Positions 2,996 to 13,770 of a DNA stretch of 13,918 nucleotides are shown in pieces. The stretch is from a bacterium. GTDB taxonomy: Bacteria; UBA9089; CG2-30-40-21; SBAY01. The number at the start of each line of letters is the position of its first letter. The first letter of the stretch is position 1. Below the pieces are notes generated by a model, which saw nothing but the letters and a program-made list of their open reading frames with translations, ran no database searches and was not told the origin of the DNA. The stretch is from NCBI GenBank assembly GCA_040757115.1, contig JBFLYA010000097.1, positions 1-13,918 on the forward strand, written 5' to 3'. A program made the translations under genes and the position numbers.

Positions 2996-3192
2996 ATAAC
3001 TATTCAGCCACAGATGAATACGGATGAAACACTGAAAATTCGTGAATCGTGTCCGGTATCCGTGTCCGTAATTAGGCTCAAGGGTTTTTCTCCTGTTGTC
3101 CTCTGCCCTCTGCCTTCTGCCCTCTGCCTTCTGCCCTCTGCCCTCTGTATTTATCCGTGCTAATCCGTATCAATCAGTGGCTGAATAGTTAC
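2996..3192. mobile_element. GTAACTATTCA-ended inverted-repeat element (197 bp)
   Basis: The left end ATAACTATTCAGCCAC (2996-3011) and the right end GTGGCTGAATAGTTAC (3177-3192) are near-perfect inverted repeats. Just inside, both arms carry related ATNCGGAT-rich sequence. Read from 3192 leftward, it closely matches the repeat at 13671-13770, and its first part matches 9855-9894. It holds a 7-bp tandem array and no ORF of its own. It fills the gap between the YfhO-like and aminotransferase genes and extends 33 bp into the aminotransferase gene, supplying its last ten codons and stop. Confidence 0.85.
3101..3147. repeat. YTCTGCC 7-bp tandem array, about 6.7 units
   Basis: The units CTCTGCC, CTCTGCC, TTCTGCC, CTCTGCC, TTCTGCC and CTCTGCC are followed by a partial CTCTG. 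The reverse complement of the same type of array lies at 13717-13758, inside the related repeat element, but with a different order of unit variants. This suggests independent unit turnover. Confidence 0.9.
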
Positions 3193-5030: not shown

Positions 5031-5402
5031 CGAATTCCGGTGGTGTCTTAATCTAGCATAAAGGTTAAAATAGTGTATAGGATCCTGCAAAATAGGATTT
5101 GAGAGAGACAATAAATAAATATCAAATATCAAATATTAAATATCAAACATAAATATCAAAATGCAAAATTACAAATCAAATTTCAAAGAGGAAGTAGCAG
5201 GGTTTCTCAAAGAGTTGGAGGAATTTGGTAATATCTTTGCTTCAAGTATTTTAACGCTGAAAGGAAAGAGATAATTTTACATTTTGATATGTAATTTTTA
5301 TATTTGCTTTTTGCATTTTGCTCTTTGGAGGAAATCCCTTTTGGACACCAAATCTGCATAGATTTCACTATTAGAGTTATTTTCAGACACCACCCGAATT
5401 CC
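5031..5402. mobile_element. Complete 356-bp non-autonomous element (copy 2) with 8-bp target duplication
   Basis: The element spans 5039-5394. It begins GGTGGTGTCT (5039-5048) and ends with the exact reverse complement AGACACCACC (5385-5394). The bases immediately outside are the same 8-mer on both sides, CGAATTCC at 5031-5038 and 5395-5402, as expected of a target-site duplication. The interior has no ORF encoding a recognisable protein and shares long blocks with 262-601. It contains a 7-bp array of AAATATC units at 5117-5151. This is the pattern of a MITE moved by a transposase encoded elsewhere. Because CGAATTCC is nearly palindromic, part of the match could instead be an extended inverted repeat. 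It fills most of the gene-free stretch 5000-5569. Confidence 0.8.
5117..5151. repeat. AAATATC 7-bp tandem array inside copy 2
   Basis: The units AAATATC, AAATATC, AAATATT, AAATATC and the degenerate AAACATA run in series. The corresponding place in copy 1 (326-339) has only AAATATC and AAATATA. The two copies of one element therefore differ in unit number. Confidence 0.75.
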
Positions 5403-8093: not shown

Positions 8094-8552
8094 GTAACTA
8101 TTCACCGCAGAGACACGGAGACACAGAGAAAAAATTAAAATCTATTGGCTATACGCTTAATTCCATCTCTTAGAACAGAAACATTAAAATTGATCAATAA
8201 ACCTATCCTTTTATTCATCATTTTTAGATAGGTTAAAAGTTGAGCTTCGTGAATCGGAAGTAGTTGCTCGACTGCTTTTAATTCTACGATAACTTTTTCT
8301 TCAACTAAAAGATCTATCCGGTATCCACAATCTAATTTAAATCCTTTATATATTACAGGTAATTCAACTTGTCTTTTGAAAGCTAACCCCACCATAGATA
8401 GTTCATAACATAAACACTCTTCATATGCAGATTCTAATAGACCTGGACCTAATGTCTTATGTATTTCAATTGCTGCACCAATAATTTTTTCTGTTATCTG
8501 ATTTATTTCCATGTTTTCTCTGTTCCTCTGCGTCTCTGCGGTGAATAGTTAC
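8094..8552 (-). mobile_element. Terminal-inverted-repeat cassette carrying a GxxExxY gene (459 bp)
   Basis: The left end (8094-8131) and right end (complement of 8552-8515) are inverted repeats. The outermost 21 bp, from GTAACTATTCACCGCAGAGA, are identical, and the match continues imperfectly as GCAGAG-rich sequence for about 17 bp more. The only gene inside is the GxxExxY ORF, which starts and stops just within the arms. It has no transposase. No clear target duplication was found (left flank ACAAAA, right flank CAATAA). A second unit at 9792-9999 has the same arms and the same gene edges but no gene. Confidence 0.85.
8135..8512 (-). CDS. GxxExxY protein, PD-(D/E)XK nuclease-like
   Basis: A small 125-residue protein of the GxxExxY family. 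The name-giving motif is G24-LL-E27-SA-Y30 in [13 protein letters not shown]. Asp67 in CGYRIDLLV, then E77-x-K79 in VIVELKA, and Gln91 in [10 protein letters not shown], fit the active-site layout of PD-(D/E)XK nuclease folds. Its substrate is not known to me, and nuclease activity is inferred from fold residues only. Length appears complete. The ATG sits 2 bp inside the gene-side end of one repeat arm, whose AGAGGAA may act as a weak ribosome site. The gene fills a terminal-inverted-repeat cassette lying between two divergent host promoters. A plus-oriented relic of the same gene unit is seen at 9814-9999. Confidence 0.93.
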
Positions 8553-8610: not shown

Positions 8611-9795
8611 ATGAATAATATTTTGGTTATGGAAGATAAATGTATCAGTTGTGAAGAATGTATCAAGGTGTGTCCTTTTGGTATAATTGCGTTAGCGGCG
8701 GATAAAGCGACAATAGGAGCGGGGTGCAATTTATGTGGAATATGTGTTGATGCCTGTCCTACAGGGGCTATTGTGATGACAGGGAAGGTTGAGGTAAAAA
8801 GCACGAATGATTATAAAGGTGTGTGGATATTTGCAGAACAACATTTTAACAATTTAGCCACGGTATCATTAGAACTCCTTGGAGTAGGAAGGAAATTAGC
8901 CGATAATTTACAGGTAGAGCTGAGTGCTGTGTTTTTAGGAAGTAGAATCGAAGAATTTTGTCCTCAATTAATTGCCTCAGGAGCAGATAAGGTTTATTTA
9001 TTGGATTCGGAGATTCTGGCAAATTATTGTGAAGATACATATACAAAGGCAATAGTTGATTTAATTTTAGAGTATAAACCAGAGATTTTTTTGTTGGGCG
9101 CAACTAATAGTGGACGGGCTTTGGCGCCAGGAATAGCGGCAAGATTAAAAACAGGACTAACCGCTGATTGCACTGAACTTAAAATAGATGAAGAAGGTAA
9201 ATTTCTTCAAACAAGACCAGCATTTGGTGGTAATTTGATGGCAACTATTATCACCCCCAATCATAGACCACAAATGGCAACAGTCCGACCAAGGGTAATG
9301 AGCAAACCTATCCCGATAGTTGAACGAACTGGAGAGATTATTAGAATAAAACCCAATGTTATGCAGGAAGATATGAGAACTAAGATAGTAAATTGGGTTA
9401 AGGAGATAAATGAAGATGTAAATTTAGAAGAGGCTGATATTGTCGTTGCCGGAGGAAGGGGATTACAGGAGGCAAAGAACTTTGAATTAATTTCAGACCT
9501 GGCTAAGGTTTTAGGGGGAGCAGTAGCGGCCTCACGAGCCGCAGTAGATGCCGGCTGGATTTCTCATCATCATCAGGTTGGTCAAACAGGAAAAACTATC
9601 TGCCCAAAACTTTATATTGCTTGTGGTATCTCCGGAGCTATTCAACACTTAGTTGGAATGCAAACTTCAGATTGTATTGTGGCTATAAATAAAGATAAAG
9701 ACGCCCCTATCTTTGATGTCGCCAGCTATGGAATCGTGGGTAACCTATTTGAAATACTTCCGGTTTTAATTGAAGAATTTAAAAAAAATCTGTAA
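8611..9795 (+). CDS. etfA: Electron transfer flavoprotein alpha subunit with N-terminal 2[4Fe-4S] ferredoxin domain
   Basis: A 394-residue fusion. Residues 1-55 form a bacterial ferredoxin domain with two CxxCxxCxxxCP clusters (Cys 11, 14, 17, 21 and 39, 42, 45, 49). The rest is EtfA, with GRALAPGIAARL and the FAD-binding C-terminal domain: SRAAVDAGW near 308-316, GQTGKT, and PKLYIACGISGAIQHL from 332. Ferredoxin-fused EtfA occurs in anaerobic bifurcating systems such as the caffeyl-CoA reductase and lactate dehydrogenase Etfs. The start at 8611 was preferred because the longer TTG frame from 8572 begins in the -35 box, and MNNILVMEDKCISC is a normal ferredoxin opening. No etfB or dehydrogenase is adjacent, which is unusual since etfB and etfA normally sit together. 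The TAA stop lies within the terminal repeat of the next element. Confidence 0.95.
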   Translation: MNNILVMEDKCISCEECIKVCPFGIIALAADKATIGAGCNLCGICVDACPTGAIVMTGKVEVKSTNDYKGVWIFAEQHFNNLATVSLELLGVGRKLADNLQVELSAVFLGSRIEEFCPQLIASGADKVYLLDSEILANYCEDTYTKAIVDLILEYKPEIFLLGATNSGRALAPGIAARLKTGLTADCTELKIDEEGKFLQTRPAFGGNLMATIITPNHRPQMATVRPRVMSKPIPIVERTGEIIRIKPNVMQEDMRTKIVNWVKEINEDVNLEEADIVVAGGRGLQEAKNFELISDLAKVLGGAVAASRAAVDAGWISHHHQVGQTGKTICPKLYIACGISGAIQHLVGMQTSDCIVAINKDKDAPIFDVASYGIVGNLFEILPVLIEEFKKNL

Positions 9796-9999
9796 CCGTT
9801 CAGGTAGTCCTTTACCGCAGAGACGCAGAGGAACAGAGAAAACATAGAAATAAAGTAACTATTCAGCCACTGATTAACACGGATTAGCACGGATAAAAAA
9901 TAAAATCAGTGTTTCATCTGTGTCCATCTGTGGCTGAATAGTTATCAATAAATTTTAATTTTTTCTCTGCGTCTCTGTGTCTCTGCGGTGAACGGTTAC
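9792..9999 (+). mobile_element. ORF-less relic of the GxxExxY cassette
   Basis: The ends GTAACCGTTCA (9792-9802) and TGAACGGTTAC (9989-9999) are perfect inverted repeats. Bases 9814-9854 match the start side of the 8094-8552 cassette at 40 of 41 positions. This includes the first codons of the gene, with its ATG changed to ATA. Bases 9946-9999 match the end side at 49 of 54 positions, including the last codons and TAA stop. Everything between is gone and replaced by a different inverted-repeat element (9855-9945). Compared with the intact cassette, 12 bp are inserted after the left terminus. The orientation is opposite to the intact cassette, so the two flank etfA head to head. This element fills most of the stretch 9796-10095. 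Confidence 0.85.
9855..9945. mobile_element. Nested 91-bp GTAACTATTCA-ended element
   Basis: The ends GTAACTATTCAGCCAC (9855-9870) and GTGGCTGAATAGTTAT (9930-9945) are inverted repeats with one end mismatch. The left half is nearly the same as 13671-13711 and the right end of 2996-3192; here the long 7-bp array is missing, so it looks like a short deletion form. It lies precisely between the two remaining edges of the GxxExxY gene. Confidence 0.85.
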
Positions 10000-13670: not shown

Positions 13671-13770
13671 GTAACTATTCAGCTACTGATTAACACGGAT
13701 TAGCACGGATAAATAGCAGAGGACAGAGGGCAGAAGGCAGAGAGCAGAAGGCAGAGGACAACAGGAGAAA
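13671..13770 (+). mobile_element. One-ended copy of the GTAACTATTCA element
   Basis: The copy begins GTAACTATTCAGCTACTGAT and continues with the same ACGGATTAGCACGGATAAAT sequence as the reverse complement of 3192-3088. It has an array of six GGCAGAR-type units (13717-13758) and the shared tail ACAACAGGAGAAA. The opposite terminus is not found before the window ends, so this is a half copy or one interrupted at 13771. It starts 31 bp after the kinase stop codon. Confidence 0.8.

Follow-up and report, generated by a model that had tools for sequence, protein, structure and literature searches.

How does a gene enclosed by matched inverted repeats multiply in a genome when no transposase accompanies it? 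This question is posed by a 459-bp unit at positions 8094..8552 of the window, that is, the whole 13,918-nucleotide stretch of DNA analysed here, which corresponds to contig C97 of a draft genome (G000; 4.3 Mb, 462 contigs). A sequence-only reading had offered two routes: either the GxxExxY protein encoded in the unit nicks or cuts at the arms like a homing nuclease, or the unit borrows another enzyme. We consider it likely that an old GxxExxY gene/arm cassette acquired IS66 ends in this lineage and spreads with them as a non-autonomous, MITE-like element.

A GxxExxY gene between inverted arms with IS66-type ends

The predicted layout, a gene fitted between inverted arms with 21 identical outer base pairs, was recovered exactly, and the gene is a full GxxExxY gene. 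Inverted-repeat analysis of the window delimits a left arm (8094..8141, + strand), a tandem CRCRRAG-type repeat, and a right arm (8505..8552, − strand), which are identical over the outer 21 bp and 85% complementary over 48 bp; the sequence GTAACTATTCACCGCAGAGA occurs at 8094-8113 (+) and 8533-8552 (−), while shuffles expect 0 matches. The outermost bases are IS66-type terminal repeats, GTAACTATTCA on the left (8094..8104, +) and TGAATAGTTAC on the right (8542..8552, −), and both read GTAACnnTTCA, as in the GTAACCGTTCAGG ends of an IS66 element found elsewhere in the genome (L051:893-2455). Between the arms lies an open reading frame on the − strand (8135..8512) for a GxxExxY protein of 125 aa, assigned by profile matches to the PD-(D/E)XK superfamily. 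It is a full-length family member (PF13366, E=1.4e-46; TIGR04256, E=4e-48, with 162.6 bits compared to a cut-off of 35) and contains the name-giving motif as GPGLLESAY. The statement that the unit lacks a transposase also held: none is present inside 8094-8552, and the IS66-family element with the same outer ends resides elsewhere in the genome. The unit is intergenic, located between two protein genes and not within an rRNA gene as a 23S intervening sequence (IVS) would be. When flanks were compared, an 8-bp target duplication was absent at the window unit and at its 459-bp twin described below; the window unit has lost its target duplication or never had one.

Other arm-bearing units in the window

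A second unit 1.3 kb away had been taken for another copy with the same arms and the same first and last codons. Arms and ATG/stop edges indeed match, but the gene is absent. This unit (9792..9999, arms at 9811-9854 and 9946-9999) ends in GTAACCGTTCAGG and TGAACGGTTAC and retains the edges of the gene, whereas a nested palindromic unit with CACGGATTAG-type arms (9855..9945), which reads GTAACTATTCAGCCACTG...GGCTGAATAGTTAT, takes the place of the gene interior. Because the interior is swapped for another palindrome, we classify the second unit as a gene-less derivative. Its flanks (AAAAATCT / GGCGAGGG) contain no 8-bp duplication. A related unit at 2996..3192 has ends that resemble GTAACTATTCA, arms of the CACAGATGAA type and an array of CTCTGCC heptamers, and a partial unit at 13671..13770 combines a GTAACTATTCAGC end with an inverted copy of the heptamer array at 3087-3141.

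Further repeats occur in the window. Inverted CTCTGCCTTCTGCC heptamer arrays at 3087-3147 and 13716-13770 resemble arms of the four-helix-bundle type (see below) but have no gene. Two copies of a composite repeat at 262-601 and 5053-5394 share longer blocks that are 93-99% identical, and the first of them contains (AACTATA)n heptamer arrays at 464-516. A 14-nt tandem repeat (GATTGGAGATTGGG; in-frame reading SPISNPQSPISNLQS) is present at 1003-1049, inside the coding ORF 694-2946 (−).

Copies in this genome and the sister genome

A search of the genome for arm-bounded units, as the sequence-only reading had proposed, confirmed that arms and gene form one multiplied unit. Allowing up to three mismatches, we counted 268 occurrences of the arm in G000, compared with a single one of the reversed-pattern control. 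PF13366 yields 65 matches; most are fragments, and about 20 are near full length. Many of these matches have internal deletions; one such unit, 292 bp long, recurs. The twin of the window unit (G000:C129:8601-9059) has the same length of 459 bp and encodes a protein that is 98% identical. Where the C129 locus aligns, G000 is 97-98% identical to a genome of the same genus (G001), and there the gene-bearing 459-bp unit of G000 is replaced in G001 by a shorter, internally deleted copy. Copies therefore also change in situ, or recombination with other copies replaces them.

Two observations had been named in advance as arguments against a joint unit, and each was encountered in part. GxxExxY genes without these arms do exist in this genome (L024, L026-L033), but every one of them lies between other, inverted arms of its own. 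Likewise, the arms are mostly gene-less, yet these copies are deletion derivatives that were transposed and carry target duplications, not random neighbours of unrelated genes. Some cassettes (L027, L029, L030, L166, L177 and L178) carry other common outer ends (CGACCTGTGAAATAGG; CGACCTGATGAATAAGGG; TTTAACCCTACAACGWCAT), which suggests capture by further IS families.

IS66-type ends, target duplications and empty sites

We scanned 1.86 Mb of G000 and its sister genome G001 for the end pattern GTAACnnTTnA...TnAAnnGTTAC. Exact 8-bp flanking duplications were found at 53 end-pairs, while there were few of 3-7 bp and none of 9-13 bp; IS66 members tabulated in the literature generate 8-bp duplications (PMC3281130). 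A looser definition of the ends retrieved 80 distinct units, 40 of them with CRCAGAG arms, three with a near-full GxxExxY gene and one with a full four-helix-bundle gene. The insertions, gene-less copies included, sit at unrelated, AT-rich, scattered sites and are flanked by differing 8-mer duplications. None of the scanned gene-bearing units combines CRCAGAG arms with an intact duplication: gene-bearing units with duplications carry other arms, and the CRCAGAG-armed units with duplications are deletion derivatives. The comparison of occupied with empty sites that had been suggested for close strains gave two orthologous empty sites between G000 and G001: the unit L074:3797-4004 is absent in G001 (98.1% identity over the joined flanks), and the G001 unit L267:5194-5340 is absent in G000. 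At the G001 flanks of GxxExxY units without IS66 ends, a clean empty site was absent.

A candidate source of the ends is the IS66-family transposase element L051:893-2455, in which a PF03050 gene lies between 15-bp identical terminal repeats (GTAACCGTTCAGGTA). Its transposase, the only near-complete one of the IS66 family found in the G000 draft, contains two stop codons, and the flanks of the element show no target duplication. Other G000 copies are broken or partial, and a search of the G001 draft assembly gave weak IS66 matches only; intact copies may be unassembled in this many-contig draft genome.

Since the GTAAC ends match those of the IS66 element, the duplications measure 8 bp and two empty sites are available, movement in this genome is DNA transposition, probably by an IS66-like transposase supplied in trans, and not GxxExxY homing. 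Thus, the borrowed-enzyme option is supported, and the same ends, duplications and empty sites make the unit comparable in its behaviour to a MITE with IS66 ends. Homing as the way of movement in this genome was rejected on account of the unrelated AT-rich sites, the 8-bp duplications and the movement of gene-less copies; a homing endonuclease has a specific cognate site and produces no random target duplication. As to the mechanism, an IS66 transposase may be the active enzyme: from another locus, it would cut at the GTAAC ends and duplicate 8 bp of the target on inserting the unit, and internal deletions would give rise to gene-less copies that go on spreading.

In G001, a 2968-bp segment (L251:3566-6533) has two inverted GTAAC-type units at its borders and is flanked by an exact 8-bp duplication (TTATCTTT). 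Its interior holds host-like ORFs, a possible case of composite transposition by MITE ends.

The gene and its arms across phyla

In a genome collection covering bacteria and archaea, the strongest 80 GxxExxY relatives span many phyla, archaea included, and some of them come from isolate genomes; 76 of these loci have full flanks. At 69 of the 76 loci, a CRCRRAG motif lies no more than 160 bp from the gene on one side or both, compared to 36 of 760 control windows. It is present on both sides at 48 of the 76, and at 42 of these both arms point toward the gene (controls: 1 of 760). The arms around these genes are matched inverted arrays of degenerate 8-10-nt repeats. The two arms of one unit match with a score of 36, whereas arms of different units reach 17 and the control 15 (p=1.9e-24), and arm similarity tracks protein similarity (Mantel test, 0/999). 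No GTAAC end was seen by eye at the cross-phylum loci; the gene-plus-arms core is therefore separate from the IS66 layer, and gene plus arms are an older cassette inside IS66 ends. That chance, or faulty assembly of a metagenome bin rich in repeats, created this picture is next to impossible: G000 does come in 462 contigs with breaks at repeats, but the pattern is repeated in G001, in complete plasmids and in isolate genomes among the 80 loci, and the shuffle, arm-motif, duplication and arm-match statistics already refute such an origin.

In a Chitinophaga-type genus, the same intergenic site is empty in three genomes (L318, L321, L326), holds a full GxxExxY cassette in two (L316, L317), a truncated one in L327 and arms only in L319 and L330, a series that we read as gain and decay on the basis of alignment coordinates and intergenic sequences. 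A comparison of Bacteroides plasmids was dismissed as an empty site because an ordinary gene is present there instead. A literature search of open-licence papers, which may miss an earlier account, found no mention of the arm sequences and no description of an inverted-arm context of GxxExxY; two of these papers mention GxxExxY, once each, and in one of them it is just the label of a domain adjacent to an RT.

The GxxExxY protein is maintained

D67, E77, K79, Q91 and N108 are conserved in two GxxExxY alignments (A1 and A2). Among 50 sequences, D67 and K79 are invariant and E77 is nearly so, as in the D...ExK signature, and by these catalytic residues the window protein is a predicted PD-(D/E)XK nuclease. 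Comparison of the window copy with others of its clade gave dN/dS values of 0.08-0.11 at dS 0.11-0.80; together with the conserved nuclease residues, this indicates that the protein is maintained. A PDB sequence search with the GxxExxY protein returned no match. A role in anti-phage defence was rejected, as the Cas4-like match was weak only (E=4e-4).

Since the arms are inherited together with the gene, and purifying selection preserves the protein, GxxExxY probably acts on its arms by binding or cutting. It could even be the mover, mobilising the cassette in a homing- or resolvase-like manner through cuts at or close to the arms, with the IS66 ends as a late accident of the lineage. The joint inheritance of arms and gene across phyla in noncoding DNA would fit, as would the purifying selection on conserved PD-(D/E)XK residues and the gain and loss of cassettes without IS66 ends at the Chitinophaga-type site. 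However, gene-less units in this genome move with IS66 hallmarks, so that the GxxExxY protein is not needed in cis, and no specific target site was seen; we regard this explanation as unlikely. In the preferred reading, GxxExxY gene and inverted arms would form the old cross-phylum cassette, to which IS66-family terminal ends were added in this lineage, and the protein would recognise the arms and, in the older layer that is independent of IS66, serve the cassette by binding or as a nuclease.

Cassettes with four-helix-bundle genes

The 23S rRNA intervening sequence protein, a four-helix bundle (PF05635), has 26 matches in the genome. Where we examined their flanks, these genes share the architecture described above, with arms of 6-7-nt repeats, and some of these units possess IS66-type ends and 8-bp duplications. 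In cyanobacterial plasmids, most examined four-helix-bundle genes likewise lie between inverted heptamer arrays (13 loci; above control for arm matching in 7/13 and for tandem repeats in 9/13). One such site is filled in one plasmid and empty in another, the plasmids being about 98% alike; one cassette without IS66 ends is flanked by a possible target duplication, GTAAT (5 bp, or 8 bp with one mismatch). At a second cassette site the target sequence is lost and a third is too diverged. On Anabaena and Pseudanabaena plasmids (L273, L275), four-helix-bundle cassettes with unlike heptamer arms are both located between cas6 and cas4.

An unbiased search of 1.15 Mb for inverted tandem-repeat arms revealed compact units that hold only GxxExxY (two) or four-helix-bundle genes (five). 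Other gene families in arm-bounded units were discarded as host genes between separate copies or short frames in repeat sequence. The restriction to two gene families in compact units, the dN/dS of about 0.1 in the window clade and the recurrence of the gene/arm pairing across phyla without IS66 ends all argue against pure hitch-hiking, in which the arms would be ordinary MITE sequence and the gene a dead passenger; most copies are gene-less or fragments, as hitch-hiking would have it, but we deem it improbable. The design is general across phyla and common to four-helix-bundle (23S IVS) genes, two aspects that escaped the sequence-only reading.

In Coxiella, the 23S IVS is reported to have tandem GACAGAT heptamers before the S23p ORF and to be excised by RNase III (PMC4990558). 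The four-helix-bundle cassettes with heptamer arms match this layout, the four-helix-bundle proteins resemble Avd of diversity-generating retroelements (DGRs), and the genome contains two reverse transcriptase matches. The arms might accordingly act as RNA, with a long stem processed in an RNase III-like manner and spread via reverse transcription. This scenario, too, is improbable, as the 8-bp duplications and terminal inverted ends point to DNA transposition here and we saw no reverse transcriptase linked to the cassettes.

Relation to known systems

The units resemble IS66 MITEs in their GTAA-type ends, which match those of an IS66 element in the same genome (L051, GTAACCGTTCAGGTA, albeit with two stops in the element), in the 8-bp duplication typical of this end class, in the lack of a transposase, in internally deleted copies and in high copy number. 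They differ in that some carry a conserved gene and a second pair of inverted repeat arms inside the IS66 ends, and in that the gene/arm core is present in other phyla without these ends. MITEs have no coding capacity, whereas some units here contain a full GxxExxY or four-helix-bundle gene, although many are gene-less. On account of these full genes, we describe the unit as working like an IS66-mobilised MITE and not as a plain member of that class. With 23S IVSs and their S23p ORF, the cassettes share a gene for about 120 aa that is enclosed by inverted sequences, with tandem heptamers beside the ORF, a layout also seen for the PF05635 genes of this analysis. Unlike them, the units here are intergenic and not in rRNA, and GxxExxY is an unrelated protein family that has the same layout with arm repeats of 8-10 nt.

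STRRs are heptanucleotide repeats of cyanobacteria. The TAACTGA heptamers of Beggiatoaceae are treated as stand-alone repeats of uncertain role (PMC4679880). Both are, like the repeats described here, degenerate 7-nt tandem repeats that are dispersed and mostly intergenic, and heptamer arrays on cyanobacterial plasmids form inverted arms around S23 genes. In contrast, the heptamers here are seen as arms of gene cassettes and of the gene-less relics of such cassettes; TAACTGA was compared by description only, and the link to STRRs is based on layout in this genome and at the 13 cyanobacterial plasmid loci.

Implications

A wider reading, which we put forward tentatively as a possibility, is that GxxExxY and S23/IVS genes supply the protein components of an unrecognised mobile cassette, which occurs in two parallel classes across bacteria and archaea, that the inverted arms of these cassettes are the source of many STRRs, that the encoded protein recognises the arms of its own cassette and either maintains or moves them, and that 23S IVSs are copies that landed in rRNA. 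Our findings give a concrete home to a widespread nuclease family without assigned function and, if the wider reading is true, there would be one origin for dispersed bacterial short tandem repeats and 23S rRNA intervening sequences. Both puzzles become open to testing through the defined ends of the cassettes, their empty sites and, in this genome, a candidate transposase acting in trans. The gene-plus-repeat design may thus link bacterial heptamer repeats and rRNA intervening sequences.
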